Below the pieces are notes generated by a model. The model made no database searches. It saw nothing but the letters and a program-made list of their open reading frames with translations, and was not told the DNA's origin. This document shows, piece after piece, positions 1-36,672 of a stretch of 64,000 bases of DNA (positions are counted from its first letter, which is position 1; each line of letters opens with the position of its first letter). Source of the stretch: Actinomycetota bacterium (GTDB taxonomy: Bacteria; Actinomycetota; Geothermincolia; Geothermincolales; RBG-13-55-18); NCBI GenBank assembly GCA_014360645.1, contig JACIXD010000001.1, positions 124,001 to 188,000 of the forward strand. Direction: 5' to 3'. Both the position numbers and the translations under genes were made by a program.

Positions 1-1
1 C

Positions 2-943
2 AGTCTGCCGGCGGAGATCCTCGCCAACGCCGTCTTCCAGCTCCTGGAAGACATCGACATGGCGGAGATGGGCGGTCTGGTGAACGCCCTCGCCGGCCTG
101 GTGACCGCTCTGCACCGCGGCAACCTGGTGCTGGGGCGCGACGAGCCCCGTTTCAAGGCGGTGCTGGAGCGGGTCAGCCGCGACCTTGTGGACAGCGTGG
201 ACGGAGAGGCCTTCCGCGAGATGCTCGTGGCCCTCAAGGAGGACGGGGCGGTCATCGGACAGGTGCTCTCGGGGTACATCTACGCCACTCCCGACAGCAC
301 AGTGCAGGCGGCGCGGGCCCTCTATCTGGCGGTGGGGGCGGCGCTGCGCGCGGCGGCGGAGCACCTGCGGCGGTTCTCAGAGCTGCCCCCCGAGGCGGTG
401 GCGGCCATGGACGCCTACTTCGAGGAGGCCGTGGACCCGCGGGAGCTGGCCCGGGTGATCAACTACAACGCGGTGCTGCTCAACAAGGCTTTCGACGCCC
501 GGCCTGACCTCCTGGCGGGTTTCGCGGGAAAGCTGCTGGCGGGTCTGGACACCGAGGCGCTGGCGGAGGCGGGGAAGAAGGCGGCCCTGCAGGTGAAGGA
601 GGCGGCGCTGGCAGACCCCGCGGTGCGGGCGGCGCTGGAGCCGGAGGCGGTGGCGGAGAGGATAAACGCCGTCCTGGCGGCCTTCAACGCCTTCGCGTGG
701 AGAAACCCCGGGTTGATGGCGGATAAGGCGGCGCGGGTGCTGGGAGCCATAAACGTGGACGACCTGGTGCTGGCGGCCTCGGAGGTGGCTGCGGCGGGCT
801 TCGCGGCCCTGCGCAGGCACCCCGAGGTGATCGGCAAGGTGGCGAAGCCCCTGCTGACCAAAGCCGCGAAACCGGCGGCAGCCGCAGCCGCGGCCCTGGG
901 TGTCGCCGCCGCTGCCGTCCTCCTCGTCCGCCGCCGCAGATGA
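2..943 (+). CDS. Helical, C-terminally membrane-anchored protein (5' partial)
   Basis: The frame is open from base 2 to the TGA at 941-943, so the gene enters from outside the window and only its last ~313 residues are visible; the internal ATG at 59 need not be the start. The protein is Ala/Leu/Glu/Arg rich and predicted almost wholly helical, with no metal or nucleotide motif that I recognise. It ends in an Ala-rich hydrophobic segment closing with LGVAAAAVLLVRRRR, which looks like a C-terminal membrane anchor with a positive cytoplasmic end. It precedes the dehydratase/reductase-like genes on the same strand, but a repeat and ~110 bp separate them, so co-transcription is uncertain. Function unknown. 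Confidence 0.7.
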   Translation, partial: SLPAEILANAVFQLLEDIDMAEMGGLVNALAGLVTALHRGNLVLGRDEPRFKAVLERVSRDLVDSVDGEAFREMLVALKEDGAVIGQVLSGYIYATPDSTVQAARALYLAVGAALRAAAEHLRRFSELPPEAVAAMDAYFEEAVDPRELARVINYNAVLLNKAFDARPDLLAGFAGKLLAGLDTEALAEAGKKAALQVKEAALADPAVRAALEPEAVAERINAVLAAFNAFAWRNPGLMADKAARVLGAINVDDLVLAASEVAAAGFAALRRHPEVIGKVAKPLLTKAAKPAAAAAAALGVAAAAVLLVRRRR

Positions 944-947
944 TGGG

Positions 948-974
948 ATGGGGTCAGCCCCGGACATGGGACAT
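948..974 (+). repeat. REP-like 27-bp repeat, copy 1
   Basis: A full copy of the dispersed 27-mer that begins ATGGGGTCAGCCCC and ends GGACATGGGACAT. It starts 4 bp after the stop of the preceding gene. The first half can fold as GGGG-TCAG-CCCC and the second half holds GGACAT followed by GGGACAT. The same sequence bounds the transposase element at 7091-8341. Confidence 0.9.
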
Positions 975-1057
975 AACGCCTTAACGGCGGCGGCAATTGG
1001 GCGGGTAGGAGGAAGTATAAGAGGAGTATCCCCGGAAAACGACGATAGGGGGTTGAG

Positions 1058-2170
1058 ATGAGGACCTTGCAGAGCCAGTCGACGGACATCTATACGGATT
1101 ACGTGCGGGACTGGAAGGAAAAGGGAGGGAAGGTGCTGGGGTACGCCTGCGTGGCCACCCCCGTGGAGCTAATCGAGGCGGCGGGAGTCCTGCCCTACCG
1201 CATCAAGGCCTTCGGGCATCCCGACACCGAGCTGGGCGACGCTTATCTGGCGCGCTTCAACTGCCGCTTCTGCCGCTCCTGCCTGCAGCTCGGCCTGGAC
1301 GGGACCTACGATTTCCTGGACGGCCTCATCGAGACCAACGGCTGCGACCACCTGCGCGGCATGTTCGAGAACTGGCAGTACGTGAAGAAGTACGAGTTCT
1401 TCCACTACCTGAAGGTGCCCCACTTCCTGCGCGAGGACTCCCTGGAATACTTCACCGAGGAGATAGGGCTCCTGCGCCAGGCGCTGGAGGAGCGTTTCGG
1501 GGCGCAGGTCACCGACGAGAGGATCCGCAAGGCCATCGACGCCTACGACGAGGTCTTCGCGAGGCTCAAGCGCCTCTACGCCCTGCGGGAGAAGGTGCCC
1601 CCTGCGGTCTCCGGCGCGGAGGTCATGCGCCTCGTCTGCACCGGCTCCTCCATGATGGCGGGGGACTTCTCGGCCCTGCTGGACGAGGTGCTGGCGGAAA
1701 AGGAGAACGCCGCGCCTCTTCCCTACAAGGCCCGCCTGATGATCCTGGGCAGCGCCACCGACGAGGTTGACCTCATCGAGGACATCGAGTCCACAGGCGC
1801 GCTCATCGCCGCCGATGCCCTGTGCTACGGATCGCGCTCCTTCTGGAGGCGGGAGGGGGAGAGCGGAGACCCCGCGCGACTGCTGGCCGAGCGCTACCTC
1901 GCCAACCTGTTCTGCCCGCGCATGTTCACCGAGTACGAAAAGCGGCGCGACTATATCCTGGAGACCGCAAAACGCGCCGGTGTGGACGGCGCCATCGTCA
2001 CCTACAACAAGTTCTGCGACCTGCACGGGGTGGAATCCGTCTCTTTGCGCATGGACCTGGAGAAGGCGGGCGTCCCGGTGCTGGTGCTGGAGAAGGACTA
2101 CGGGTCCAAAGCCGACACCGGCCGCATCAAGACCCGCGTCCAGGCCTTCCTGGAGAGGCTGGGGAAGTAA
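1058..2170 (+). CDS. 2-hydroxyacyl-CoA dehydratase / benzoyl-CoA reductase family subunit (BcrC/BadD/HgdB-like)
   Basis: 370 residues. Family members bind a [4Fe-4S] cluster and, with an ATP-driven activase, perform radical dehydration of 2-hydroxyacyl-CoA or reduction of aromatic acyl-CoA. Visible support: an early Cys31 in GYACVATPVELIEAAG, the cluster FNCRFCRSC (Cys69, 72, 75), a further Cys at 96 in IETNGCDHLRG, and late cysteines in ADALCYGSRSFW and YNKFCDLHG, all typical of this family. Length matches the smaller catalytic subunit. The ATG at 1058 follows AGGGGG with 5 nt spacing. The next gene begins 13 bp downstream, so they are likely co-transcribed. The substrate cannot be assigned from sequence alone. 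Confidence 0.88.
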   Translation: MRTLQSQSTDIYTDYVRDWKEKGGKVLGYACVATPVELIEAAGVLPYRIKAFGHPDTELGDAYLARFNCRFCRSCLQLGLDGTYDFLDGLIETNGCDHLRGMFENWQYVKKYEFFHYLKVPHFLREDSLEYFTEEIGLLRQALEERFGAQVTDERIRKAIDAYDEVFARLKRLYALREKVPPAVSGAEVMRLVCTGSSMMAGDFSALLDEVLAEKENAAPLPYKARLMILGSATDEVDLIEDIESTGALIAADALCYGSRSFWRREGESGDPARLLAERYLANLFCPRMFTEYEKRRDYILETAKRAGVDGAIVTYNKFCDLHGVESVSLRMDLEKAGVPVLVLEKDYGSKADTGRIKTRVQAFLERLGK

Positions 2171-2183
2171 GGGGGTGACGGCG

Positions 2184-3584
2184 ATGGCGCAGGTGGAGAT
2201 CAGGCCGTACGAGGGGCTCATCAACCGCGTCTACGAGATCTTCTCCATCGTGGACAAGCTGCCCGACAAAATGAGCGACCTGGAGGTCGAGGGGATGATG
2301 CACGTCCTCCCCTCGGAGCTCGCCGGGACCATGCGGGCCTTCATGGTGCCGCGCATCCGCGGCGTAAGCCTCAAATTCCTCCGCCTGGTCAAGAGATGGC
2401 TGGACGGGGCGCACGAGGCCAAGCGCACGGGAAAGAAGGTGTTCCTGGTCCCCTTCAACTTCCCGCCCGAGATCGTGCACTGCTTCGAGGGCGCCTGGCC
2501 CATCACCAGCGAGGTGCTCTCCACCCTGGGGGTGGTGGCCCTGGAGGGACAGGGTGAGAGGTACTGGGACTACGCCATGGGGTTGGGGCTCCCCGACTTC
2601 GCCTGCTCGGCGAACATGATCGAGGTGGGCTCGGCGCTCACGGAATCAGACTTCATCCCGGACGCCGTCATCTCCGACTGCTTCGCATCCTGCGACATCA
2701 ACTCCAAGACCCATGAGTTCCTGGCGCGCTACCTGGACATCCCCCTCCTCTTCCTGGAGAAGACGGTGGACAACAGCGAGCGCGGGGTCAGGCAGTACTA
2801 CAAGTACTTTTTCCGCCTCGTCGAGGACATGGAGGATTTCCTGGGCGAGAAGCTCGACGAGGAGCGCATGCGCATGGTGGTGGAGAACGCCAACCGCGCC
2901 TCGGAGCTCTTCTGGGAGCTGTGGGACATGCACAAGTTCTCGCCCTGCCCCGTGCCCAACGTCTTCTCCCTCGTCACCTACGGGGTGCGCTACACCATGT
3001 GGGGTACGGAGGACGCGGTGGAGGTCATGCAGGCCATGGTGGACCTTTCCAAGGAAAGGCTTGCCAGAGGGCTCTATCCCGCCGAGGCGGAGGTGGCGCG
3101 CAGCCTCTGGACCTACACCAGCTACTACTTCGACATGGGAGGACTCTTCAACTGGATGGAGGAGAACGGCATCACCCACCTGGGAGACGGCCTGGACCTC
3201 ATCTTCCCCCAGGCCATCGATCCCACCTCGCGGGAGAGCATGCTCACGGGGATGGCGGAGATAGCGCGCAACATGCCCATGACCCGGCAGATGGGGGCGA
3301 GCTCCATGTCCGTGCAGTGGCTGGACGACATCTCCTGGGCCTCCCGCGAGCTGGATGCCGACTGCTGCATCTACTGCGGGCACCACTCCTGCAAGCAGAC
3401 CTGGAGCGGCGCTTCGGTGGTGCGCGCCGAGCTCATGAAGCGCTCCAGGATACCCACCCTCATCCTGCAGGGCGACTCCTGGATCAAGCGCATGACCCCC
3501 ATCACCGTGCTGCAGGAGACCATAGACGAGTTCGTGAACAACGTGGTGAAGAGACGCGAGGCCCCCGCCCGCGCCATCGGCTGA
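2184..3584 (+). CDS. 2-hydroxyacyl-CoA dehydratase / benzoyl-CoA reductase-like large subunit, paralog 1
   Basis: 466 residues from ATG 2184 (AAGGGGG about 9 nt upstream); longer upstream readings overlap the previous gene in another frame. Likely partner of the 370-residue subunit. It has the family core, with a Cys in PPEIVHCFEGAWPITSE, SCDINSKTHEFLARYL, and a dense C-terminal cysteine motif, DADCCIYCGHHSCKQ (Cys394, 395, 398, 403), a plausible Fe-S ligand set. It is closely similar along its whole length to the protein at 5684-7087 (shared motifs FLVPFNFPPE / ILVPFNFPPE, EGQGERYWD, YCGHHSCKQTWS and the same ending style), which marks a gene duplication. It is longer than textbook HgdA or BcrB (~430 residues). 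Whether the two paralogs act in one complex or two is unknown. Confidence 0.85.
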   Translation: MAQVEIRPYEGLINRVYEIFSIVDKLPDKMSDLEVEGMMHVLPSELAGTMRAFMVPRIRGVSLKFLRLVKRWLDGAHEAKRTGKKVFLVPFNFPPEIVHCFEGAWPITSEVLSTLGVVALEGQGERYWDYAMGLGLPDFACSANMIEVGSALTESDFIPDAVISDCFASCDINSKTHEFLARYLDIPLLFLEKTVDNSERGVRQYYKYFFRLVEDMEDFLGEKLDEERMRMVVENANRASELFWELWDMHKFSPCPVPNVFSLVTYGVRYTMWGTEDAVEVMQAMVDLSKERLARGLYPAEAEVARSLWTYTSYYFDMGGLFNWMEENGITHLGDGLDLIFPQAIDPTSRESMLTGMAEIARNMPMTRQMGASSMSVQWLDDISWASRELDADCCIYCGHHSCKQTWSGASVVRAELMKRSRIPTLILQGDSWIKRMTPITVLQETIDEFVNNVVKRREAPARAIG

Positions 3585-3586
3585 AC

Positions 3587-3613
3587 ATGGGGTCAGCCCC
3601 GGACATGGGACAT
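3587..3613 (+). repeat. REP-like 27-bp repeat, copy 2
   Basis: An exact copy of the 27-mer in the same orientation as copy 1. It begins 2 bp after the TGA of the large subunit gene. Confidence 0.9.
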
Positions 3614-3835
3614 GCGACAGGGTCGGAGGCAGGATCGCCCGGGAGATGAAAACAGAGGCACGAAAAGAGACGCGCGGGCATGGAGGCGAAGACGGGGTCA
3701 GGAGAGCGGCGCTATGCGTCGGCGGGCGCCGGCTAGCGCTAATGCATGGCCGCAGAAGGACCGGGCTCCGACGTGCTCTTATTCTTTACACGGCAGGGAG
3801 GTCAAGGAAAGTGAGGAGATGTTCGGAGGTATGAG

Positions 3836-4627
3836 ATGTACTTCGCGGGAATCGACGTCGGGTCGCTCACCGCGCAGGCGGTAGTGATCAACGCCAAAGG
3901 GATCGTGGCCTACAAGAGCATAGGCGTCAAGCCGCACCCAGTGCAGTCCGCCCGGGCGGTGGTAGACATGCTGGTCAAGGAGGAGGGCATCGACTGGAGC
4001 GAGATCAGGTTCTGCGTCAGTACCGGCTATGGGAGGGAGCAGGTGCAGGCGGAAGGACTCTCCCAGGACAACGTGAGCGAGATAAGCTGCCACGGCATGG
4101 GCGCCTCGTGGCTGGTGCCCGAGGTGCGCACGGTCATCGACATCGGCGGTCAGGACGCCAAGGTCATCCGGGTGGGCAAGGGCGGTGAGCTAGTGGATTT
4201 CGTGATGAACGACAAGTGCGCCGCCGGCACCGGCCGTTTCTTGGAGGTTCAGGCGCGCACCCTGGGGCTCTCCCTGGACGAGCTGGGGACGGTATCCTTC
4301 CAGGCCGAGCGCGCCCTGGAGCTCTCCAGCCGCTGCAGCATCTTCTGCGAGACGGAGGTGCTGCATTACCTCCAGCGCGGCCACACCAAGGCGGACATCG
4401 CGGCGGGCGTCAACCGCGCCATGGCCGAGAGGGTGGCCGCCCTAGTGCGCCGCGTGGGCCTGGAGAAGGAGGTGACCATGAGCGGTGGGGTGGCAAAGAA
4501 CGCCGCGGTGCGCGCGGAGCTGGAGCGCATGCTCAACGTGCGCCTGATCAAGTACGACACCGATTCCCAGATCGTGGGAGCGCTGGGAGCGGCGCTCATG
4601 GCGCGCAAGATGGGAGGTGGGTCATGA
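3836..4627 (+). CDS. Acyl-CoA dehydratase activase, BadF/BadG/HgdC ATPase family (A)
   Basis: 263 residues, in the ASKHA-fold ATPase family that couples ATP hydrolysis to injection of a low-potential electron into the dehydratase or reductase. Visible motifs: phosphate loop GIDVGSLTAQAVV at the N-terminus, IDIGGQDAKVI, MNDKCAAGTGRF with Cys128, SSRCSIFCETE with Cys167 and Cys171, and MSGGVAKN near the C-terminus. Cys128 and Cys167 match the spacing of the two cysteines per monomer that hold the bridging [4Fe-4S] cluster in HgdC (Cys127 and Cys166; known of the family). ATG 3836 follows GGAGGT. The stop overlaps the next start as ATGA, so both activases are translationally coupled. Confidence 0.9.
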   Translation: MYFAGIDVGSLTAQAVVINAKGIVAYKSIGVKPHPVQSARAVVDMLVKEEGIDWSEIRFCVSTGYGREQVQAEGLSQDNVSEISCHGMGASWLVPEVRTVIDIGGQDAKVIRVGKGGELVDFVMNDKCAAGTGRFLEVQARTLGLSLDELGTVSFQAERALELSSRCSIFCETEVLHYLQRGHTKADIAAGVNRAMAERVAALVRRVGLEKEVTMSGGVAKNAAVRAELERMLNVRLIKYDTDSQIVGALGAALMARKMGGGS

Positions 4628-5394
4628 TGTACCTCGGCCTGGACGTGGGGAGCCTCTACACCAAGGCGGTGGTGATGGACGGCGATGCCCTGGTGGCCTC
4701 ACGGGTGATCGAGACCACGGGCAACGTGTCCGACGAGGCCCGGGTGCTGTTGGATGAGGTGCTGAGCGCGGCGGGCGCATCCCGTGCGGACCTGGGAGGG
4801 ATCGGGGTCACGGGACGCGGGGCCGAGCTGGTGGAGATAGGCGACGTCAGGCGCGACGACGTATCCTGTCTTGCCATGGCGGTGAGCCGCCTGGTGCCGG
4901 ACGCCAACCTGGTGCTGGACGTGGGGGGACAGAGCGTCACCTCCATCCTCATCGATGGCGATGGGTGCGTGGTGGACTTCATGCGCAACGACAAGTGCGC
5001 CTCGGGGTCGGGAAAATTCCTCACCGTCATGGCCGCCGCCTTGGGCTACGGCGTGGAGGAGCTCGATGAGGTGGCAGCGCGCTCTCGCAACAGGGTACCG
5101 GTGAGCTCGCAGTGCGGGGTATTCGTGGAGAGCGAGCTCATCACCCACGTCAACGACGGCGTGGACCCCGCGGACATCATGGCAGGGATATGCGAGTCGG
5201 TGGCCAAGATCCTCATCTCCCAGGCGCTGAAGTTCGGGTTCCAGGACGAATACACCGTCACCGGGGGAGTGGCCAAGCTGCGCTCGGTGGTGGGTCCCGC
5301 ACGGGAGAAGATACGCGGCGAGTACCGGGACTTTCCCTGCGACCCTCAGCTGGCCTGCGCCATCGGGGCAGCCTTCCTGGCGGAGGAGGAATGA
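4624..5394 (+). CDS. Acyl-CoA dehydratase activase, BadF/BadG/BcrD-like ATPase (B)
   Basis: 256 residues, second and distinct member of the activase family. It keeps the nucleotide loop GLDVGSLYTKAVV, LDVGGQSVTSI, MRNDKCASGSGKF with Cys125 and SSQCGVFVESE with Cys164, plus VTGGVAKL. Each cluster-binding Cys is conserved, but the extra Cys seen in activase A (FCETE) is Val here. A tandem pair of unlike activases resembles the BcrA/BcrD heterodimer of ATP-dependent benzoyl-CoA reductase more than the HgdC homodimer (inference). Start ATG 4624 overlaps the upstream stop; ATG 4627 is the alternative. Confidence 0.88.
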   Translation: MMYLGLDVGSLYTKAVVMDGDALVASRVIETTGNVSDEARVLLDEVLSAAGASRADLGGIGVTGRGAELVEIGDVRRDDVSCLAMAVSRLVPDANLVLDVGGQSVTSILIDGDGCVVDFMRNDKCASGSGKFLTVMAAALGYGVEELDEVAARSRNRVPVSSQCGVFVESELITHVNDGVDPADIMAGICESVAKILISQALKFGFQDEYTVTGGVAKLRSVVGPAREKIRGEYRDFPCDPQLACAIGAAFLAEEE

Positions 5395-5530
5395 GGTCGG
5401 AGACGTCGGACGCGGCGCGACCCGGTCGAGGGCGTTGGGACGAGACGGACTTGGAGGTTAGCGTTCCGCTCTGATCCGGACTGAAGGGACCGCTGGAAGG
5501 AATAGGAAGAAGGACAGGGAAGCGAGGAGC

Positions 5531-5681
5531 GCGCGGACGCGGGGAGTCGCGGGTAAGGGGACTGAACAGAGGAGAGACGAGCGCTGCCGCCCTCTAGCGG
5601 CGGGGCAACGGTCGGGTGGGGCAGGGATCGCAAGGGAACCTGCGCGGACACGGGAGAGTCGCGAGCAAAGGAGCTTGAGAG
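5531..5681 (+). repeat. Imperfect direct repeat in the leader of the second large subunit
   Basis: Two ~38-bp stretches, about 5531-5568 and 5642-5679, each begin GCGCGGAC, share a GAGTCGCG core and end near a TGA triplet. By eye they agree at about 80 percent. The second contains the ribosome binding site (AAAGGAG) of the gene starting at 5684. The 289 bp between 5395 and 5683 hold no convincing gene. Confidence 0.4.
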
Positions 5682-5683
5682 AC

Positions 5684-7087
5684 ATGGCACAGAAGGAATT
5701 CAGGGATTACGAGGGGCTTGTCAACAGGGTTTCCGGGATCTTTGGGCTGCTGAAGTATTTCCCCGATGAGCTGAGCGACGAGGAGGTGGAGGGCGTCCTC
5801 CACGTCCTGCCGAAGGACATGGCCACCACCATCGGGGCGGTGATGGCGCCGCGCATCCGCAGGGCGAGCCTGGCCTTTCTCAAGGGCATCCAGCAGTGGT
5901 TCGACGGGGCGAGGGCGGCCAAGGCACAGGGCAAGAAGATCATCCTCGTGCCCTTCAACTTCCCGCCCGAGTTCGTGTACTGTTTCGAGAACGCCTATCC
6001 GCTGACCAGCGAGGTCCTCACCGTCTCCGGAGTGGCCTCCCTGGAGGGCCAGGGGGAGAGGTACTGGGACTTCGCCATGGGTCTGGGGCTTCCCGATTAC
6101 CTGTGCTCGTCCAACACCATAGAGCTCGGCTCCGCCCTCACGGGGGCGGATTTCGAGCCCGACGCCATCATCTCCGCGGCCCCGGGGAGCTGCGACGCCA
6201 ATTCCAAGATCCACGAGTTCGTGGCGCGCTATCTGGGGGTGCCCCAGTTCCTGCTGGACAAGCCTGTGGACGACTCGCCGCGCGGGCGCCGCGCCTACCG
6301 CACCTATTTCCGCTCCCTGGTCAGGGATCTGGAGGAGTTCCTGGGCGAGGAGCTCAAGGAGGAGAGGATGCGCGAGGTGCTCAACCGTGCCAACCAGGCC
6401 ACGCGCCTCTACTATGACCTGTGGGAGATGCGCAAGGCGCGGCCCAACCCATGTCCCAACATCTTCACCCTCTACGCCTACGGCATCCGCTATACCCTTT
6501 GGGGGACGGACATCGCGGTGAGGGTGCTGCAGGCGATGCTCGACACGGTGAGGGAAAGGATGGCCGAGGGGATGTACCCGGCCGAGGAAGAGGTGGCGCG
6601 CTGCTTCTGGATCTATACCTTCTACTACTGGGACTGGTACGGTTTCTTCAACCGCATGGAAGAACGGGGCATCACCGTCCTCGGCGACCTGCTGGGGTCC
6701 TTCTTCTTCCAGCCGGTGGACACCTCCACCAGGGAGGCCATGATCGACGGGCTGGCGGACACCTGCTGGGATTACGCCATGACCCGCCAGGTGGGGGCGG
6801 AGTCCATGTCCGCGCAATGGGTGGACGATATCGCCTACTGGACCTCCCAGCTCGACGCCGACGCCTGCATCTACTGCGGCCACCATTCCTGCAAGCAGAC
6901 CTGGAGCGTCTTCTCTCTCGTGCGGGGGGAGATCATGAAGCGCACCAAGCTCCCCACCCTCATGCTGCAGGGCGACGCCTGGATACGCCGCATGACCCCC
7001 ATGAGCGCGCTGGACGAGCAGATCGACGAGTTCGTGGCCACGGTGTTGAAACGAAAGCGCACCACCACCGCCCGCCGCGTCGGCTGA
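5684..7087 (+). CDS. 2-hydroxyacyl-CoA dehydratase / benzoyl-CoA reductase-like large subunit, paralog 2
   Basis: 467 residues from ATG 5684 (GGAG 10 nt upstream); this start gives MAQKEFRDYEG, parallel to MAQVEIRPYEG of paralog 1, and a TTG at 5675 is less likely. The whole protein aligns by eye with the 2184-3584 product, including the C-terminal cysteine motif DADACIYCGHHSCKQ; one of the two adjacent cysteines of paralog 1 is Ala here. SCDANSKIHEFVARYLGVP and EGQGERYWDFAMG are also shared. It lies beyond the activases, so the set reads subunit, large 1, activase A, activase B, large 2. Either the two large subunits pair with one small subunit in different complexes, or one substitutes under other conditions; sequence cannot decide. 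Confidence 0.85.
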   Translation: MAQKEFRDYEGLVNRVSGIFGLLKYFPDELSDEEVEGVLHVLPKDMATTIGAVMAPRIRRASLAFLKGIQQWFDGARAAKAQGKKIILVPFNFPPEFVYCFENAYPLTSEVLTVSGVASLEGQGERYWDFAMGLGLPDYLCSSNTIELGSALTGADFEPDAIISAAPGSCDANSKIHEFVARYLGVPQFLLDKPVDDSPRGRRAYRTYFRSLVRDLEEFLGEELKEERMREVLNRANQATRLYYDLWEMRKARPNPCPNIFTLYAYGIRYTLWGTDIAVRVLQAMLDTVRERMAEGMYPAEEEVARCFWIYTFYYWDWYGFFNRMEERGITVLGDLLGSFFFQPVDTSTREAMIDGLADTCWDYAMTRQVGAESMSAQWVDDIAYWTSQLDADACIYCGHHSCKQTWSVFSLVRGEIMKRTKLPTLMLQGDAWIRRMTPMSALDEQIDEFVATVLKRKRTTTARRVG

Positions 7088-7090
7088 CCA

Positions 7091-7117
7091 ATGGGGTCAG
7101 CCCCGGACATGGGACAT
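7091..7117 (+). repeat. REP-like 27-bp repeat, copy 3 (left end of RAYT element)
   Basis: An exact copy of the 27-mer, starting 3 bp after the stop of the upstream gene. It is the inverted partner of copy 4 at 8315-8341; between them lies the transposase. Confidence 0.92.
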
Positions 7118-7315
7118 TTTCCGGGTCCGGAAATAGGTGAGCTGCCGGCGCAGCCATTGATTATTCTAAGCGATTATGACCTCTGCTCAGAAACACGCTA
7201 AATCTAGGTGTTTTAAGCCCATGATGCAACCTCAAGTTGTGCTGGCGCCATCCCTTCCCGAGCTAACGGACCAATCGTTTTATTCTATGGATTTCGTGAG
7301 CTGCCGACGCATAAG

Positions 7316-7344
7316 TTGACAAACATATAAAAGTCATATATAAT
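7316..7344 (+). promoter_or_regulatory. Consensus sigma-A type promoter of the transposase
   Basis: TTGACA at 7316-7321, a 17-bp spacer and TATAAT at 7339-7344, so both hexamers are perfect. Initiation about 7 bp later would fall at 7351-7352, directly on the ATG chosen for the transposase, so the message would be leaderless. The ATG at 7343 overlaps the -10 box and cannot be transcribed from here. Confidence 0.8.
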
Positions 7345-7351
7345 GCGTTAC

Positions 7352-8335
7352 ATGGCTAGGCCGTTGCGCATACAGTACGAAGGCGCTTTCTACCACGTGA
7401 TCTCCAGAGGGAACGGCGGGAGTTTCCTCTACAGGTCCGATAAGGAGAAAGAGCACTTCATCGAGCTTCTGGGAAAAGGCGCCGAAAGGTATGAGGTAGA
7501 GGTCTACGCATACTGTGTGCTCGGGACCCATTATCATCTCTTGATCCAGACCCTGAAGGCGAATCTCTCCGGGTTCATGCATTACCTCGGCTCCTCATAT
7601 GCGAACTATGCTGCCTACATGGGCTGGAAGGGCCATGTCTTCGCGGGGCGCTATAAATCCATCTGCATCGAGAAAGAGGAATATTTCCTCACCGTGAGCC
7701 GTTACATCCACCTGAATCCCGTCAAGGCAGGGCTGGTCGTCAAGCCGCAGGATTATCGATGGTCGAGCTATCGCCATTACGCCGGAGGAAGCGATGCTCC
7801 GGAATGGCTCAGACAGGACTGGCTAAAGGAGTATTTTGGCGATGAAGATAGGGAGGCCAGACGTCTCTACTGTGAATTCGTGGAGAGCGCGTGCGATGAC
7901 CCGCCCCAATACCCGAAGGAGAAGGTAGTCGCCCAGGCGATACTGGGGAGCGAGAAGTTCGTGGACATGATCAAGGTGATGATCAAGGATAAGATAAAAC
8001 CTAACGAGACCACGGGACTGAAATACCTCGTAAGAGAGCTTTCGCTCCGGGAGCTCTATGATGCCGTGTGCCGGCATTATGGCCTGAGCGACCTTGAAGG
8101 AGAGGATGGACGAAAGCCGTCCGCGTTGCAGAGGGCGAGGAAAGCCTTCATCTATCTTGCCAGAGAATACACGCCAGCGACGAATGGAGAGATCGCGGGC
8201 ATGCTGAGTGATGTCTCGCCGAACGCTGTTTCTCGACGCTATTCGAGGATAAAGGGGTGTCTGGATGAGGGGGGGTCGAGCGAAACGGGGTTCAGGGGAG
8301 AGCTGGTCGAGATAATGTCCCATGTCCGGGGCTGA
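7352..8335 (+). CDS. REP-associated tyrosine transposase (Y1_Tnp) with DnaA-like C-terminal domain
   Basis: 327 residues from ATG 7352, giving the standard family opening MARPLRIQYEGAFYHVISRGN. Y1 HUH-type transposases cut and join single-stranded DNA at hairpin-bearing REP ends. Visible: the metal-binding HxH in GTHYHLLI, the following region YANYAAYMGWKGHVFAGRY where the nucleophilic Tyr is expected, and YIHLNPVKAGLV, a family hallmark. The C-terminal ~80 residues (LRELYDAVCRHYGL ... NAVSRRYSRI) resemble the DnaA C-terminal helix-turn-helix found fused in one RAYT branch. The last codons and the TGA come from the right inverted repeat itself, read as MSHVRG-stop. It appears intact. Confidence 0.92.
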   Translation: MARPLRIQYEGAFYHVISRGNGGSFLYRSDKEKEHFIELLGKGAERYEVEVYAYCVLGTHYHLLIQTLKANLSGFMHYLGSSYANYAAYMGWKGHVFAGRYKSICIEKEEYFLTVSRYIHLNPVKAGLVVKPQDYRWSSYRHYAGGSDAPEWLRQDWLKEYFGDEDREARRLYCEFVESACDDPPQYPKEKVVAQAILGSEKFVDMIKVMIKDKIKPNETTGLKYLVRELSLRELYDAVCRHYGLSDLEGEDGRKPSALQRARKAFIYLAREYTPATNGEIAGMLSDVSPNAVSRRYSRIKGCLDEGGSSETGFRGELVEIMSHVRG

Positions 8336-8341
8336 CCCCAT
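8315..8341 (-). repeat. REP-like 27-bp repeat, copy 4 (right end of RAYT element)
   Basis: An exact inverted copy. It supplies the transposase stop codon and ends 4 bp before a TATAAT box at 8346. Confidence 0.92.
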
Positions 8342-8345
8342 TGGA

Positions 8346-8351
8346 TATAAT
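8346..8351 (+). promoter_or_regulatory. -10 box of the first sensor kinase, probable leaderless start
   Basis: TATAAT followed by 6 nt and then the ATG of the kinase at 8358. At -35 (8323-8328) the sequence is TGTCCG inside the repeat, a poor match, so either the repeat displaced the original -35 or another activator is used. Confidence 0.6.
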
Positions 8352-8357
8352 CGGGGT

Positions 8358-10031
8358 ATGGAGTCGGTGCGGGAGCTGCTGTTAGAGTTGGCGGAGCTTT
8401 TCACCTCCGAGGACAGCCCCATCAAGAAAGCCATCGACCCCCTTGGAGACGGCGCGGTGCTCAAGGTCCACGCCCCGGGGGGCTCCATATGCGTGGAGAA
8501 GGTGGGGGGGCGCTTCGTCTACGGCGAGAGTACGGAGAAAAGGTCCCTCTTCGAGCTCGTCTTCGAGGATCCCCGCGACCTGGAGACCTTCCGCGAGGTG
8601 AAGGACGCGCGCGACTTCGGCGACCGCTTCTTGACCCTGGTGCGCGAGGGCAGGCTCAAGCTCGACATGCTGAGGCCTTTCATCGACCTCTGGTCCCTGG
8701 GGGTGGGATATTTCCTGGAGGAGATCGGCATCCTCTCCCCGCCCCACGATTACCAGGATCTCATCGGGAGCCTTCAGCTCAGGGACATCGCCTTCACCGA
8801 GATCCTGGATGTGAGGTATCTCCAGGAGCTGGTGGACGAGCTGGCGCGCATCACCGGGGTCAGGCTATGGGTGCTGGACATGAACTGCATGCCGGTGGTG
8901 GTAAGCGCCACCGGGGGCGAGCACTGCAAGCTGATCATCGACTCCCTCGAGGGCGTGATGCGCTGCTACCGGTCCGCCATCGGTGCCCTGGCGGAACTCA
9001 AGAAGAGCATGGGACCGAAGGTGCGGATATGCCACGCGGGCTTCGTGTGCTTCGACGCCCCCCTCATCCTGGGCGGGGAGATCGTGGGCATGATCAGCGG
9101 CGACGCCTCGCTCATGGAGACGCCGGACCTGGAGAAGTACCGCCGGCTGGCGGAGGAGCTGAGCGTGGACCCCGAGCCGCTGCTCGCCTCCCTCGAGCAT
9201 GTGAGGAGCGTGAACATCGAGGAGGTGGAGTTCTTGCTCTCGGTGGTCAACGCCATCGCCCAGGTGGTGACGGAGATGAGCTTTAAGCAGTACCTGCTCA
9301 CGCGACAGATGAAGGAGAACGCGGAGCTGACGCGGGAGCTGAGGCGCGCCAATATGGAGCTCAAGGCCCTTTTCCAGTCCATCCTGGAGATACAGGAGCG
9401 GGAGAGGTCGTCGGTGGCGCGGGATCTCCATGACCACACGGGCCAGGATCTCAGCAACGCTCTGGTCAACCTGGAGCTGGCACTGAGCGAGGAGGGGGTG
9501 CCGGAGGGGACGCGGGCGCATATCGAGTCGGCCTCTTCCTCCATATCCCAGGTGCTCAAGCAGGTGCACGACCTCTCGGCGTCTCTCCACCCACCCGTGC
9601 TGGACGACCTGGGGCTTGCCGAAGCCCTGCGCAACCTGGTGCGCAGGATGAACGCCGATTACCCCATCGAGTTCTCCCTGCACACGGAGGGAGAGGAGGG
9701 CGCGCTGTCGGGCGAGGTCAAGATAAACCTCTACCGTATCGCCCAGGAGGCCCTCAACAACGTGGTGAGGCATTCCGGCGCGCGCAGGGCCAGGGTGGAG
9801 CTCAGGCGCGACGAGAAAGGCCTGGAGCTGGTGATCAGCGATGACGGCCGCGGTTTCGCGGACGCGGGGCGCGCGGGGAGAGATAGGCCTTCCTCATGCG
9901 AGGGCGAGAACGCCATCCACCTGGGCCTCGTGAACATGCGCGAGCGGGCGGAGCGCATCGGCGCCACCCTCGAGTTTCCCCCCCGCGAGAGGGGAGTGAC
10001 GGTGGCGGTGCGCATACCGGCGGCGCCATGA
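8358..10031 (+). CDS. PocR-domain sensor histidine kinase (HisKA_3 / NarL type)
   Basis: 557 residues. ATG 8358 is chosen because upstream codons are only translated repeat. No membrane segment, so cytoplasmic. Domains: residues 1-125 unassigned (possibly a lipid-binding SCP2-like fold, low confidence); PocR ligand-sensing domain about 140-304, with conserved cysteines in EHCKLI, MRCYRSA and RICHAGFVCFDAPLILGGEIVG; a coiled linker; HisKA_3 with phospho-acceptor His358 in ARDLHDHTGQDLS; and HATPase from about 456 (AQEALNNVVRHS, DDGRGF, LGLVNMRERAE). HisKA_3 kinases normally phosphorylate LuxR/NarL regulators, and one lies at 12953. PocR domains are known to sense small organic molecules; proximity to the acyl-CoA genes hints at a shared signal. 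Confidence 0.88.
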   Translation: MESVRELLLELAELFTSEDSPIKKAIDPLGDGAVLKVHAPGGSICVEKVGGRFVYGESTEKRSLFELVFEDPRDLETFREVKDARDFGDRFLTLVREGRLKLDMLRPFIDLWSLGVGYFLEEIGILSPPHDYQDLIGSLQLRDIAFTEILDVRYLQELVDELARITGVRLWVLDMNCMPVVVSATGGEHCKLIIDSLEGVMRCYRSAIGALAELKKSMGPKVRICHAGFVCFDAPLILGGEIVGMISGDASLMETPDLEKYRRLAEELSVDPEPLLASLEHVRSVNIEEVEFLLSVVNAIAQVVTEMSFKQYLLTRQMKENAELTRELRRANMELKALFQSILEIQERERSSVARDLHDHTGQDLSNALVNLELALSEEGVPEGTRAHIESASSSISQVLKQVHDLSASLHPPVLDDLGLAEALRNLVRRMNADYPIEFSLHTEGEEGALSGEVKINLYRIAQEALNNVVRHSGARRARVELRRDEKGLELVISDDGRGFADAGRAGRDRPSSCEGENAIHLGLVNMRERAERIGATLEFPPRERGVTVAVRIPAAP

Positions 10032-10416
10032 CGTCCGCGCCGCGTGCGCCTGCCTCCTTCTGTTCCCGGGGCTATGTGGGATGCCCGGGGTGCAGGCGCC
10101 GTCAACCATGCGGGAGGGGGAAGCTGTTATCATTGACACGCCGGAAGGAATGCGGCACCGGAGACGCGTGAGGGTCGCGTTGGGGGCTTGCGGCAATGGC
10201 CCGGGATCCGCACCGCGACTAGTGCCCCGCTCCTCTCGCGGCAGGCTGTGTGGGGAATAATGAAGGTTGTCGTTTCGTGTTACGGACGTTCTGTTATCCG
10301 GCACGGAGGAAGCGGCGACGCGCCTGCGGGCGGCTTCGCAGATAAAGGGAAGATGTCGATCTCGGCCCGGGCAGGCGTGGCATCCGGGCCGGAGATAGTG
10401 GGTCGGAACGGTTGAG
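10032..10416. other. 385-bp gap between the two kinases
   Basis: No credible reading frame. A TTGACA occurs at 10133-10138 but has no matching -10 box at usual spacing. I see no terminator or RNA structure that I would call. Confidence 0.5.
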
Positions 10417-12804
10417 ATGGGATCGGACTGGTCGCGCGACATCCGTGCCGGGGCGCACATCTGCCTTTTCTACGCACAGGAAAAGGAGCGGGACGAGGCG
10501 CTCCTGGAGTTCGCGCGCGCGGGCTTGGAAGCAGGGGCGAAGACCGTCTGTTTGCTCGACAGTAAGGGCCTGTCGAAGGCGGAGAAGGAGCTCCGCGGTC
10601 TCGCGCGGGGTGTGGCGGGCGGGAGCATGGACGCGCTGGTCATATATGCTACGGAGAACGTTTACCGCGGCGGGGAGAAGTTCGAGGCCTATAGGATGGT
10701 CGCCTTTCTCGAGCACGAGGTGGCCGGCGCCCTCGCGGAGGGCTTTTCCTCCCTGTGGGTCGCGGGGGAGATGAGCTTTATCCATGCCGAGGACACCCCC
10801 TTGGAGGAGCTGCTCCGCTACGAGGCGGAGGTGAAAAGACTCTTTGACGGCAAGGCCTGCGCTGGGTTGTGCATGTACGATATGCGACTCTTCGAGCCCC
10901 GCTTCCTCCTCGACGTGCTGGACACCCATCCCCTCCTGCTCATGGACGGGAGGTTGACCAGGAACCATTTCTTCCTGCCCCCCGAGGAGGCTGCGAGCAG
11001 CGATCATCTTTCCCTTGTCCTGGCCCGGAGGGTGCAGGCGGTGCGCGAGGTGGAGAGCATGATCTGTTCGCTGCGCGCCAGGAACGCCCTCCTGGAAGAG
11101 GCGCAGAGGCTAACCGGGTTGGGGGGCTGGGATTGGGACGTTTTGAACCGCCGCATGTACTGGACAGACGAGCTTTACCGTCTGCACGGCATGGAGCCGG
11201 GCGCCCTCGCCCCGGGCTCCGAGGAGCATATCCGGCTCAGCCTGCAGTGCTACGACCCCGATGACCGACCCGTGATCTTGGAGGCCTTCGAGCGCTGTGC
11301 CTCGCAGGGCGTCCCCTATGACCTGGAATTCCCCTTCACCGACCTGCGGGGCCGGCGCAAGTGGATCAGGACCGCGGCGAAGGCCGTACGCTTGGACGGC
11401 AAGGTGGTGCGGGTGGTGGGGAACCTCCTGGACATCACGGAGCAGAAGCACAGGGAGCTGGTGCTGGAGGAGTCGCGGGAGCGGCTGAGGAAGAGGCTGG
11501 ACGCCGTGCTGGAGCCGGAGGGCGAGTTGAAGGACCTGCCGTTGAGGAGCATCGTGGACGCGGAGCAATTGCAACCGCTCCTGGACGAGCTGCGCGCCAT
11601 GACCGGCTTGGCGGTGGGGATCCTCGATCTCGAGGGCAGGGCGGTCATCTCCACCTCGGGGCAGGAGATGTGCATGCGCTTCCACCGCGCCCATCCGGAG
11701 TCCGCAAGGGCCTGCCGGGAGAGCGACCTGGAGATGGCCGCCGGCTTGGAGCCGGGCGCGTTCAAGCTCTACAGGTGCAGGAACAACCTCTGGGACATGG
11801 CCACCCCCATAATGGTAAGAGACGTACATGTAGGAAATATCTTCCTAGGGCAGTTCCTCTTCGACGACGAACCCGTCGACACGGAGCTCTACCGCGAGCA
11901 GGCTTCCCGTTACGGTTTCGACGTGGAGGAGTACCTGGCGGCGCTGGAGCGCGTGCCGAGGGTAAGCCGCGGGGAGGCGGAGAAGACCATGCGCTTCTGC
12001 GCCCGGCTCGCGAACATGATCTCGAACCTCAGCTACCACCGTACAGCACTCGCCAGGGCGCTGCGCGAGGCGGAGGAGCTCGCCGGCGAGTTGAAGGTGC
12101 GAGATGGCCAGCTCAAGGGATTCCTGGAGATCGCCGCGCACGAGCTGCGCCACCCCGCCACCCTGCTCAAGGGGTATGCGGCGCTGTTGAGGAGGAGCTC
12201 GCGGTCGCTGGACCAGGCCTTGGTCGAGGAAGCGGCCTCCGCCGTCGAGAAGGGCAGCGACAGGTTGATGAAACTGGTGGAGCAACTCCTGGACATATCG
12301 CGCATCGAGCAGGGCAGGCTGGTGCTGGAAAGGGAGAAGGTAGCCGTGGGACCGCTGGGACGGGAGGTGATCGAGGAGATGGGCATCCTCTATCCCGGCA
12401 GGAGTTATATCCTGGAGGCGCCTCCGGAGCCCGTCCTTTTAGAGGCGGACCCCGAGCGATTGCGGCGCCTCCTGATCATCCTCCTGGACAACGCCGCCAG
12501 ATATTCCGAGGCCGATACCGATATTGAGCTGAGGATCACCCGCGAGGGGGGCAGCCTGTTGTTTGAGGTGCTGGACCGCGGCAGGGGTATCCCGGAACCC
12601 CTCAGGGAGAAGATATTCGAACGGTTCTTCCAGGTAGAGAAGGACCTCAACCGTTCCTCACAGGGGCTGGGGATCGGGCTCTACATCGCCCGCCATATAG
12701 CGGAGGCCCATGGGGGCGGGCTGTGGCACGAACATCGGGAGGGCGGGGGGTCAGTCTTCAAGGCGAGCTTTCCGCTGGAACGGTGGGAGCAGAGCAGGGG
12801 ATGA
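10417..12804 (+). CDS. MEDS-PAS-PocR hybrid sensor histidine kinase
   Basis: 795 residues, no membrane segment. Domain order: MEDS/DcmR-like sensory domain 1-185 (AGAHICLFYAQEKERDEALL ... AGLCMYDMRLF); PAS about 228-345 (GGWDWDVLNRRMYWTDELYR ... VVGNLLDITEQKH); PocR about 371-535 with cysteines in QEMCMRFH, ARACRESD and LYRCRNNLW; classical HisKA with His575 in AAHELRHPATLLKG; HATPase to the end (LIILLDNAARYS, DRGRGIPEPL, GLGIGLYIARHIAEAHGG). MEDS and PocR domains are often found in kinases of methanogens and methylotrophic bacteria (known). The HisKA type differs from the first kinase, so the two may serve different regulators. ATG 10417 has only a weak ribosome site. Confidence 0.85.
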   Translation: MGSDWSRDIRAGAHICLFYAQEKERDEALLEFARAGLEAGAKTVCLLDSKGLSKAEKELRGLARGVAGGSMDALVIYATENVYRGGEKFEAYRMVAFLEHEVAGALAEGFSSLWVAGEMSFIHAEDTPLEELLRYEAEVKRLFDGKACAGLCMYDMRLFEPRFLLDVLDTHPLLLMDGRLTRNHFFLPPEEAASSDHLSLVLARRVQAVREVESMICSLRARNALLEEAQRLTGLGGWDWDVLNRRMYWTDELYRLHGMEPGALAPGSEEHIRLSLQCYDPDDRPVILEAFERCASQGVPYDLEFPFTDLRGRRKWIRTAAKAVRLDGKVVRVVGNLLDITEQKHRELVLEESRERLRKRLDAVLEPEGELKDLPLRSIVDAEQLQPLLDELRAMTGLAVGILDLEGRAVISTSGQEMCMRFHRAHPESARACRESDLEMAAGLEPGAFKLYRCRNNLWDMATPIMVRDVHVGNIFLGQFLFDDEPVDTELYREQASRYGFDVEEYLAALERVPRVSRGEAEKTMRFCARLANMISNLSYHRTALARALREAEELAGELKVRDGQLKGFLEIAAHELRHPATLLKGYAALLRRSSRSLDQALVEEAASAVEKGSDRLMKLVEQLLDISRIEQGRLVLEREKVAVGPLGREVIEEMGILYPGRSYILEAPPEPVLLEADPERLRRLLIILLDNAARYSEADTDIELRITREGGSLLFEVLDRGRGIPEPLREKIFERFFQVEKDLNRSSQGLGIGLYIARHIAEAHGGGLWHEHREGGGSVFKASFPLERWEQSRG

Positions 12805-12952
12805 GGGATATGATGTCGCGGGGGAGCGAGCGAGACGCCGGAGCGGCCTCAACCCCTGCGTCGCTGTGAGGCGGCCGCGAACGGGTCAGGGCGGAGATTG
12901 TGGCCTCCGCCGGGAGCGCGCCGGCGGCCGGGGTTGACCTGGAGGGGTGAGG

Positions 12953-13621
12953 ATGGAGGACAGGTCGGGGAGGATACGCGTCCTGTTGGTGGACGACCAC
13001 GCCATACTGCGGGAGGGCCTGGCATCCCTCATCGAGAAGCAGGACGACATCACCGTGGTGGGGGAGGCGGAGGACGGCGCGGCCTCACTGCAGAAGGCGG
13101 AGACCCTCCTCCCCGACGTGGTGGTGCTGGACATAAAGCTGGCGGACATGTCGGGCATCGAGGTGTGCCGCCGCCTCAAGGAGAGCTACCCCCTGGTCAA
13201 GGTGATCATGCTCTCCATGTACGAGGACTATGAATACGTCAACCGGGCGCTGCGGGTGGGAGCGGATGGCTACCTGCTGAAGAAGGTGGCCAGCGCCGAG
13301 CTGGTGAACGCCATCCGCAAGGCGCGGCGGGGGGAGAAGGTCTTCAGCCCCCAGGTGCTGGACATGATCGTGTCCTCCTTCAAGGAGGAGAGAGGGGAGG
13401 TTCCGGACAGTTCGCCGCTGCACGCCCTGACCTCCCGGGAGCGCGAGGTGCTGGAGCTCATGAGCGAGGGGATGAGCAACAAGGAGATCGGCGCCCGGCT
13501 GTTCATCTCTCCCAAGACGGTGGAGAAGGCGGTTTCCAACATATTCCATAAACTGGGGGTGAACTCCCGCACCGCGGCGGTCAAGATCTTCCTCAGCGGG
13601 GCGGGGCGTGGTTCCCCGTGA
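12953..13621 (+). CDS. NarL/FixJ-type response regulator
   Basis: 222 residues from ATG 12953 (GGAGG 7 nt upstream; GTG 12947 is possible). Receiver domain 1-125 with acidic pair in LLVDDHAILREG, phospho-acceptor Asp60 in VVVLDIKL, and the conserved Lys in GYLLKK. LuxR-type helix-turn-helix from about 158: LTSREREVLELMSEGMSNKEIG, SPKTVEKAVSNIFHKLGV. Likely partner of the HisKA_3 kinase at 8358. Its 3' end overlaps the convergent glycosyltransferase gene by 29 bp, so the two messages are complementary there. Confidence 0.9.
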   Translation: MEDRSGRIRVLLVDDHAILREGLASLIEKQDDITVVGEAEDGAASLQKAETLLPDVVVLDIKLADMSGIEVCRRLKESYPLVKVIMLSMYEDYEYVNRALRVGADGYLLKKVASAELVNAIRKARRGEKVFSPQVLDMIVSSFKEERGEVPDSSPLHALTSREREVLELMSEGMSNKEIGARLFISPKTVEKAVSNIFHKLGVNSRTAAVKIFLSGAGRGSP

Positions 13622-14753
13622 GGCGGCGGTATTCCTCGAAGAGCCGGGCGCGCATGCGGGCGTGGTCGAAATCCCGCTCTACCTTGCGGCGCGCGCGCCG
13701 CGTGTAGTTCTCCACCGCCCGCGGGGCCTGCAGGTAGAACTCCAGGGCCTCGGCCAGGGCTGCGGGATCCCGGTCCCTCACCAGAATGCCGTCGCGTCCG
13801 TCCTCCACGATCTCCCGCGGCCCCCGCACGTCGCAGGCGATCACCGGCACTCCCGAGGCCATGGCCTCGATGAGGGTGACCCCGAAGCCCTCGCGCGAGG
13901 AGGGGAGGACGTAGATGTCGAAGGCGCGGTAGAAGCGCTCGGGGTCGAAACGATAACCGGTGAAGACGAGGGGCAGGGGCGGCGAGGTCCCTGCGGCGAG
14001 CTCCGCCAGGCGTTCGTGCTCCCGCGGCTCCAGAAAATGGTCTCCCACCAGCACCAACCAGAGGCGGGGATGCGCGGGAAGGAGACGTGCCGCCGCCTCC
14101 ACCAGGGTATCGAGGTTCTTCTCCCGCCGGATCTCCCCTATGTAACCGATGACGGTGGCGTCGGCGGGGATCCCCAGCTCTTCCCTCAACCCGCCGTCGT
14201 CCCCAGGCCGGAAACGCTCCAGGTCCACGCCGTTGTGGATGAGCCTGGCCCGGGTGGGGGCGACGACCTTTTTCGCCGCCGCCAGGGCGAGGTCCTCGGC
14301 GTTGACGAAGATGATGAGGTGGCAGCGCTTTCCGGCGAAGCGCTCCGCCGCGAGCACCAGGTTTTTCCTGAGCCTGCCGGAGCGGTGGGAGAAATAGAAG
14401 CCGTTGCAGGTATGGACCACCGCCCGTACCCCGAGCTTCCAAGCCGCAAGACGTCCCAGCACGCCGTCCTTGGGGTTATGGGTATGCACGAGGTCGAAAC
14501 CGCCCTCCCGTATCAGGGCCTTGAGGCGGCGGTAGGCACCGAGGTCCGCCAGGGGGGTTACGCTGCGGGTGATGGGGATGTCGTGCACGGCAAGCCCCGC
14601 GCCCTCCAGCGTCTCCCTGAAGGAGGTCACCCGGCAGGCGACGTGCACCTCATGTCCCCGCTCCGCCAGCTCCCGGAAAAACGGCAACATGTAGGGAGAG
14701 GCGGCGAAGCGGTCCAGGTTGCAAACCTCGAGCACGCGCAGCTTGTCGGACAT
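13593..14753 (-). CDS. GT4 family glycosyltransferase
   Basis: 386 residues. GT-B fold retaining glycosyltransferase that transfers a sugar from a nucleotide donor, probably in surface polysaccharide or glycolipid synthesis. Visible: N-terminal acceptor domain with HTHNPKDGVLGRLAAW, linker TVIGYIGEIRREKNLDTLVEA, and the C-terminal E-x7-E region SSREGFGVTLIEAMASGVPVIA. No membrane segment. ATG at 14753 sits 6 nt after a TATAAT box, suggesting a leaderless message. Its 3' end overlaps the response regulator tail-to-tail. Confidence 0.88.
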   Translation of the reverse strand: MSDKLRVLEVCNLDRFAASPYMLPFFRELAERGHEVHVACRVTSFRETLEGAGLAVHDIPITRSVTPLADLGAYRRLKALIREGGFDLVHTHNPKDGVLGRLAAWKLGVRAVVHTCNGFYFSHRSGRLRKNLVLAAERFAGKRCHLIIFVNAEDLALAAAKKVVAPTRARLIHNGVDLERFRPGDDGGLREELGIPADATVIGYIGEIRREKNLDTLVEAAARLLPAHPRLWLVLVGDHFLEPREHERLAELAAGTSPPLPLVFTGYRFDPERFYRAFDIYVLPSSREGFGVTLIEAMASGVPVIACDVRGPREIVEDGRDGILVRDRDPAALAEALEFYLQAPRAVENYTRRARRKVERDFDHARMRARLFEEYRRLTGNHAPPR

Positions 14754-20666: not shown

Positions 20667-21680
20667 CTAAAGTATATACCACCATGGGGTCAGCCCCGGA
20701 CATGGGACATCTCTTGGATCAGCCCCGCATTCCACCCGGCCTCCGCCGCGGAAACCGGACATCATCCAGCCCGGCTCCCGGACACGGGACGGCTCCCGCT
20801 CCGCCGCCGCCCGTCCGCACAGGCATGTGCCGAAGGGCACCAGCGCGCACCGCCGCCGCACCTCCTCGCCGAGGCCCCTTTCCGCCTTCATCTCCAGGAC
20901 GCCCTCCCTGTCATCCGCCAGGAACACCGTTCCCTGCGATTCGAATGACAGCCAGGGGATGGAGAGCACCAGGTCGAGTGACCGCGCGAGGATCTCCTCC
21001 AAACTCGCGCCGCTCAGCGAGAGCTCCAGCAGGGAGTTCATGGTCCGCAGGAGGTCGTTGTTGCAGCGGAGCCGCTCTTCCAGGCGGTAGTGGTAGAGCG
21101 ACTCCGCCACCACGGGCGCAAGCGCCTCCAGACCTTCCAGCTCCCCCTCGCCTCCCCCCCGCCCGTTTTTCTTCGCCAGGTGCATGACCCCGATGGTCTC
21201 GGAGCGGAAGGCGAGGGGCAGGATAGAAAGTGACCGGAAGCCCGCGTTTCGACAGGCGTCCCGGTAGCGTACCGCCCCCTCCCCGCGCCGCGAGTCCAGG
21301 AAGGCCGGGAGGTCGTCTGAGTGGAAAGACCCGCCCCGGGTCATCCCCGGGGCGTCGCACGCGCACATGTCCTCCCGGGCCATGCGGGTACACAGACATT
21401 CGTCATCGTCCACGCGCAGCCACCGCTCCTCTCGCAGAAACCCCTCGGGATAGCCGCGGTGTGCCACGAAGGGGAGGTTGCCGTGCTCGTCCTTCACCCT
21501 GATCCCCAGGGCGTCGTATCCGAAGGTCTCCTACAGGTCCTGTATCACGGCCTCCAGAAAAGGGAGCATGGAGCCGTACCTGGAGGAATAATCCCGGCAA
21601 CGCCCCACGAGCCGGTCGGTTACGGCCGGCCCACCACCGTCCCCTTCCCTTGCTCCACTCCCATCTCGATGAGCCGCCAT
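20667..21680 (-). pseudogene. Decayed GAF-domain protein, TAG at codon 50 and 3' end lost in a repeat
   Basis: From ATG 21680, with a strong AAAGGAGG site, the frame runs MAAHRDGSG ... FLEAVIQDL, then TAG at 21531-21533, then continues in the same frame as ETFGYDALGIRVKDEHG. Both sides read as one GAF domain, so the TAG is an interruption. A second GAF domain starts at about codon 200 (LLRTMNSLLELSLSG ... LVPFGTCLCGRAAAERE) but stops after ~60 residues, where the frame enters the repeat at 20710 and ends at 20667. Intact relatives would carry a longer second GAF and often a kinase or output domain. A GTG restart at 21497 could still yield a fragment. AT-rich bases 21764-21840 upstream include a minus-strand TATAAT (21776-21781). 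Confidence 0.8.
20684..20710 (+). repeat. REP-like 27-bp repeat, copy 5
   Basis: An exact copy. Read on the minus strand it lies just upstream of a TATACT box and the otsA leader, and it also forms the 3' break point of the GAF gene running toward it. Confidence 0.9.
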
Positions 21681-36645: not shown

Positions 36646-36672
36646 ATGTCCCATGTCCGGGGCTGACCCCAT
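36646..36672 (-). repeat. REP-like 27-bp repeat, copy 8
   Basis: An exact inverted copy between the decayed gene and tatD. Its last base forms the third base of the tatD TAA on the minus strand. Confidence 0.9.

Follow-up and report, generated by a model that had tools for sequence, protein, structure and literature searches.

Reactions of class I benzoyl-CoA reductases and of the dehydratases of the same superfamily rank among those with the lowest potentials in biology and, to our knowledge, only few substrates of these enzymes have been described. In BzdNOPQ from Aromatoleum (PDB 8s02), the genes follow the order small subunit, large subunit, activase, activase, and the two activases are unlike. 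MbdONPQ (3-methylbenzoyl-CoA reductase; PDB 9g87, 9gai) is likewise a four-component class I system. (R)-2-hydroxyisocaproyl-CoA dehydratase, HadBC (PDB 3o3m), is served by a single homodimeric activase, HadI, while DCCP, considered here together with its reductase (PDB 6eno, 7yyl), is a homodimer with one double cubane per monomer. BzdN and DCCP both carry an [8Fe-9S] double cubane; in BzdNO it resides in the N-type subunit and a [4Fe-4S]-OH2 cluster in the O-type subunit (PMC11971306). Net two-electron reductases combine a double cubane with a [4Fe-4S] cluster that binds water, while the second subunit of dehydratases keeps only a reduced cluster (PMC11971306).

The window (the whole stretch of 64,000 nucleotides that was analysed) carries a locus which is probably an ATP-dependent two-electron reductase of the BCR/HAD superfamily, class I-like in build and forming its own clade. 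Its core consists of five genes on the forward strand. The first one (1058-2170) encodes a BzdN/DCCP-like small subunit of 370 aa, the predicted carrier of an [8Fe-9S] double cubane, and is followed by a large catalytic subunit, large1 (466 aa; best start 2184, end 3584). Two activases come next, act1 (3836-4627, 263 aa) and act2 (256 aa; best start 4624, end 5394), the start of the latter overlapping the stop of the former. A second large catalytic subunit, large2 (467 aa), lies at 5684-7087, with an upstream TTG at 5675 as alternative start. The small subunit, large1 and large2 scored 284, 146 and 158 bits, respectively, against Pfam model HGD-D (PF06050), all exceeding its cut-off of 28.4 bits; the two activases displayed 200 and 165 bits against BcrAD_BadFG (Pfam), and act1 and act2 reached 243 and 195 bits against TIGR00241. 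Large1 and large2 were 59.5 % identical, act1 and act2 33 %. The position of the five genes, their sizes and the presence of two large paralogs, as given by the sequence-only reading, were thus borne out by open reading frames and Pfam matches. Comparison with two close relatives yielded dN/dS values of 0.03-0.17 across all five genes, synonymous changes far outnumbering replacement changes. All five are genuine, undamaged genes that evolve under purifying selection, and the low dN/dS indicates that both large copies are maintained by selection; that the large duplicate might be a decaying copy was set aside in view of values of 0.06-0.13.

The window belongs to contig C1 of a 3.38 Mb genome (34 contigs), and the nearest named relatives of large2, with 88-89 % identity, were found in an Actinomycetota MAG and in Candidatus Solincola daggyaiensis. 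At least 13 HGD-D matches above the Pfam cut-off were present in the host genome. Contig C5 harbored a second copy of the system, of which the small subunit was 60 % and the large subunits 43-46 % identical to the window copy, and which comprised its own pair of acyl-CoA dehydrogenases (Acad), helical proteins, a ferredoxin-like protein and one activase of 327 aa. A separate HadBC-like pair was also present.

As expected of class I reductases, both activases retain their two cluster cysteines, C128/C167 in act1 and C125/C164 in act2; these positions had been named correctly beforehand and were invariant in 21 and 20 sequences, respectively. The suggestion that two unlike activases are themselves novel was set aside, this being the normal class I arrangement with genes ordered as in bzdNOPQ. 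Nor was the supposed excess length of the large subunits substantial: at 466-467 aa, compared with 447 for BzdO and 445 for MbdO, they exceed BzdO by only some 20 residues.

FastTree trees included BzdO/BzdN, MbdO/MbdN, HadB/HadC, DCCP and further HGD-D pairs encoded in the genomes that carry the system; they lack BcrB/BcrC and HgdAB sequences, and curated BcrB/BcrC and HadB/HadC models provided a second test. Large subunits formed a separate clade with a support of 1.0 together with four sister pairs and 0.97 alone, and small subunits did so with supports of 0.99 and 1.0, respectively. HadBC, and likewise the HadBC-like pairs found in those genomes, branched apart from the system, as did BzdNO, MbdON and DCCP, and neither large paralog fell within the characterised BzdO, MbdO, HadB or DCCP clades. 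The separate clade anticipated for a possibly unassigned class was therefore recovered. Profile scores were equally distant. The small subunit displayed 180 bits against BzdN and 137 against BcrC, and the large subunits fewer than 25 against BzdO, the cut-offs being 421-454 bits. HadB returned 39-41 bits for the large subunits (cut-off 750), HadC 143 bits for the small one (cut-off 700) and DCCP 185 bits for the latter (cut-off 350). The best equivalog of act1 was bzdQ, with 190 bits against a cut-off of 380. Class I equivalogs TIGR03190, TIGR03191, TIGR02260, TIGR02263, TIGR03192, TIGR02259 and TIGR02261 remained far under cut-off or unmatched. With all curated equivalog cut-offs missed widely, an acyl-CoA-type substrate outside known assignments, as had been proposed, is still the best reading.

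Eight cysteines of the small subunit (31, 69, 72, 75, 96, 256, 286 and 320) were invariant in 25 sequences, and at six of these positions (31, 69, 96, 256, 286 and 320) DCCP and BzdN both have cysteine as well. In MbdN, by contrast, several of these cysteines are missing, and in HadC two of the six double-cubane positions, 31 and 256, are occupied by Pro and Ala, respectively. The small subunit is accordingly only predicted to carry the double cubane, ligand positions alone being no proof of a cluster. Among 43 large subunits, C141, C170 and C403 of large2 were invariant and occupied the columns of the BzdO ligands C95, C128 and C380; large1 displayed its predicted aqua-[4Fe-4S] ligands at the same columns, and HadB has the same three cluster cysteines. 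The C-terminal CIYCGHHSC motif singled out earlier was indeed present; of its cysteines, however, only the last one (C403 of large2) was invariant among the 43 sequences. The idea that the unconserved CIYC cysteines bind a cluster was set aside. The catalytic glutamate of BzdO (Glu65 column) was conserved, corresponding to E113 in large2. The catalytic His131 of BzdO, located beside the cluster-bound water, is replaced by Asn173 in large2, and the Trp46 column of BzdO by Pro, so that proton donor and pocket differ from those of BzdO.

These substitutions bear on the view that the locus encodes a benzoyl-CoA reductase of class I which has merely diverged in sequence and still uses benzoyl-CoA, or one of its simple derivatives, as substrate. 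We regard this view as distinctly improbable. It would agree with the shared type of gene order, with the closest PDB sequence match of the small subunit, namely BzdN (8s02_B, E 2e-54), and with the common cluster ligand positions; AcadB, encoded upstream, also displayed its best NCBIfam match, far under cut-off, to cyclohexane-1-carbonyl-CoA dehydrogenase. Against it stand the separate clade, the low BzdN, BcrC and BzdO scores and the loss of Trp46 and His131. In addition, the host genome (98 % complete) displayed neither a dienoyl-CoA hydratase (83 of 292 bits) nor a 6-oxo-ene-acyl-CoA hydrolase (78 of 464 bits) above curated cut-offs, another difference from BzdNOPQ. Because of the pocket changes, the separate clade and the missing ring-pathway hydratase and hydrolase, simple benzoyl-CoA is disfavoured and unlikely as substrate.

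A redox-neutral 2-hydroxyacyl-CoA dehydratase of the HAD type, using ATP for activation only, was considered as well. The AF2 model of large2 (pLDDT 88, pTM 0.89) matched HadB best over residues 56-462 (Z 36), followed by BzdO (Z 34), MbdO and DCCP (both Z 31), unrelated rows reaching Z ~6. The N-terminal 55 residues were modelled as an extra helical segment outside most of those structural alignments, including the ones with BzdO and HadB, and would represent an extension that BzdNOPQ lacks. Furthermore, an FPPE segment near the N-terminus of the large subunits resembles FPQE of HadB, and the HadBC-like pair of the host genome indicates that the family is in use there. A dehydratase nevertheless appears unlikely: the small subunit displays Cys31 and Cys256, which are absent in HadC, two distinct activases conserved across loci replace the single one of HadBC/HadI, and both the HadB/HadC scores and the tree place the system elsewhere. 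As far as residues can tell, the ligand layout, with a predicted double cubane and aqua-[4Fe-4S] cluster, favours ATP-driven net reduction of an acyl-CoA by two electrons over dehydration.

In such a reductase, reduced ferredoxin would charge a [4Fe-4S] cluster common to an act1/act2 heterodimer, and ATP hydrolysis would drive single electrons into the [8Fe-9S] double cubane of the small subunit, which could store two of them. Both electrons would then pass to the aqua-[4Fe-4S] cluster of the large subunit, where the acyl-CoA thioester would be reduced. This acyl-CoA would probably be bulky or cyclic and handled by the co-encoded AcadAB pair. Large1 and large2 presumably take turns as partner of the single small subunit, which would result in two isoenzymes with different substrate pockets.

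The wider operon is the more unusual part of the system. It extends upstream beyond the window on the same strand, with acadA and acadB, encoding acyl-CoA dehydrogenases, followed by a gene for a helical protein of 554 aa (helix554). The C-terminal part of the latter occupies positions 1-943 of the window (forward strand), the whole gene lying at 8280-9944 of locus L010. Helix554 had no Pfam match and is found at the same position in most related operons. An all-alpha AF2 model of its orthologue in locus L018, of low confidence (pLDDT 70, pTM 0.44), retrieved no fold relatives from the PDB (best E 8.5). The order acadA, acadB, short helical protein, helix554, small subunit, large subunit(s), act1, act2 was likewise seen in Actinomycetota and Syntrophomonadaceae as well as in MAGs of other Bacillota, the Actinomycetota carriers being of the Solincola/Geothermincola type. 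The carriers are anaerobes about which little has been published. Deltaproteobacterial MAGs displayed the order small, large, act1, act2, p240, cooC, without Acad genes (p240 is described below). An Rfam search of window positions 1-14000 revealed no element.

The number of large subunits varied among operons. One was found in loci L027, L033, L037-L039, L041 and L053, two in tandem in L032 and L034-L036, and two with the activases between them, the arrangement also present in the window, in L018-L022 and L025. In L095 (8835-13095), a tandem array of three large subunits follows one small subunit. Duplication of the large subunit is thus a lineage variation, relatives carrying one, two or three; this variable number, together with the linked AcadAB, helical proteins and p240/CooC, differs from BzdNOPQ. 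Two further arrangements were encountered. In Candidatus Solincola sediminis (L022, 4108-6627), the small subunit and large1 were each distributed over two frames, which could be due to assembly error or decay, while large2 was intact. At L023 and L024, orphan large subunits (71 % identical to large2) were found, the adjacent genes that were examined including neither a small subunit nor an activase.

AcadA lacks the usual FAD-contact motif, which AcadB retains, and in AcadB of the window type the usual catalytic Glu is exchanged for Met, the contig C5 copy having Glu. Coupling to acyl-CoA oxidation is therefore uncertain. This residue pattern may be reminiscent of acyl-CoA dehydrogenases that are encoded by two genes and act on bulky CoA esters. 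Thiolase genes were found near the copies in L045 and L047, and SDR/MaoC and acyl-CoA ligase genes near p240. Sister-clade small/large pairs of Deltaproteobacteria (L091, L092 and L094) adjoin GMC-type flavin oxidoreductases, L091 also displaying a geranylgeranyl-reductase-like protein. The helical proteins and the thiolase, SDR/MaoC, ligase and GMC neighbours are hints of hydrophobic substrates, to be taken as leads only.

Should the Acad genes be unrelated passengers, the system could be a DCCP-like reductase of a non-CoA or small-molecule substrate. This seems very improbable. All six DCCP cysteine positions are kept, in the small subunit here, the Deltaproteobacterial copies do without Acad genes and sister lineages adjoin GMC-type enzymes instead. 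The distinct large subunit, on the other hand, displays just three of the double-cubane cysteine positions and an open site of the BzdO/HadB type, unlike the homodimeric DCCP, and the Acad pair adjoins the core genes in most Actinomycetota and Syntrophomonadaceae loci.

In 13 related loci, act2 is directly followed by p240 and a CooC-like ATPase; in the host genome this pair lies on contig C3, beside a second act2-like gene. P240 matched Pfam CdhC (acetyl-CoA synthase beta) with 31-45 bits. Aligned to the acetyl-CoA synthase of the host, it covered the middle part and stopped before the C-G-C nickel site, thus resembling CODH/ACS without its nickel-site domain and fourth ligand. A C-x2-C-x5-C pattern was kept where acetyl-CoA synthase has its first A-cluster-site cysteines, the CxxC coinciding with the first ligands. 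No CODH gene was recognised beside p240/CooC in the loci examined. The ATPase displayed a GKGGVGKT Walker motif and a CxC motif, both invariant in 15 sequences; GKGGVGKT and CxC (nickel/zinc) are motifs of CooC (PMC6006190). The pair may act in maturation or in CoA handling. A farther-reaching reading, which is rather doubtful, would see in the locus a new class of ATP-dependent radical reductase that depends, for assembly or function, on a dedicated metal-insertion ATPase of the CooC type and on a truncated acetyl-CoA-synthase protein. Its substrate would be a bulky hydrophobic acyl-CoA, e.g. a terpenoid- or steroid-like one, carried by the helical proteins.

The large subunit (E <= 1e-60) was detected in 22 of 296 Actinomycetota genomes, all from the class to which the window belongs, and in none of 271 others; it was present in 22 of the 25 sampled genomes of that class. 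Helix554 occurred in exactly the same 22 of 296 genomes. Stand-alone p240 (>280 bits) was found in 21 of these 22 and nowhere else among the 296, weaker matches elsewhere being mostly located in frames of ~735 aa, as expected for true acetyl-CoA synthases. The three class members without the large subunit also lacked helix554 and p240. Agreement of the three patterns is inflated by shared ancestry within one class, a weakness that does not affect the finding of this gene cluster in Bacillota and Deltaproteobacteria as well.

Repeat CATGTCCGGGGCTGACCCCAT was located at window positions 951-967, 3590-3606, 7094-7110, 8322-8338, 20687-20703, 33789-33805, 33973-33989 and 36653-36669, several copies lying between genes of the reductase operon. 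Its core was thus present in eight copies in the window, as opposed to 0.05 expected by chance, and the 21-mer in 82 copies in the genome with at most one mismatch, a control pattern yielding 0. The repeat looks like a REP element. An IS200-like (Y1) transposase at 7343-8335 is flanked by a copy on each side and is therefore probably a REP-associated transposase. Similar-looking transposase genes were observed beside related loci L033 (7529-8491) and L091 (6665-7348). Downstream of the operon (8322-13621), two PocR-domain sensor histidine kinases, one of them also with a MEDS domain, and a LuxR-type response regulator were encoded, which may regulate the operon. Histidine kinase and response regulator genes also follow the operon in several relatives.

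Among open-licence papers, searched for Geothermincolia as well, no description was found of the operon module, of CooC with dehydratases or reductases, or of a p240/CooC pair with a reductase of this family. The locus represents a conserved clade of ATP-dependent reductases, class I-like and with unusual operon partners, that has apparently not been described. Its occurrence across three phylum-level groups, and in 22 of the 25 sampled genomes of the class, suggests that an undescribed reduction is of central importance to those organisms. The association of the system with a maturase of the CooC type and a fragment of acetyl-CoA synthase could show how the unusual clusters of the superfamily are built.
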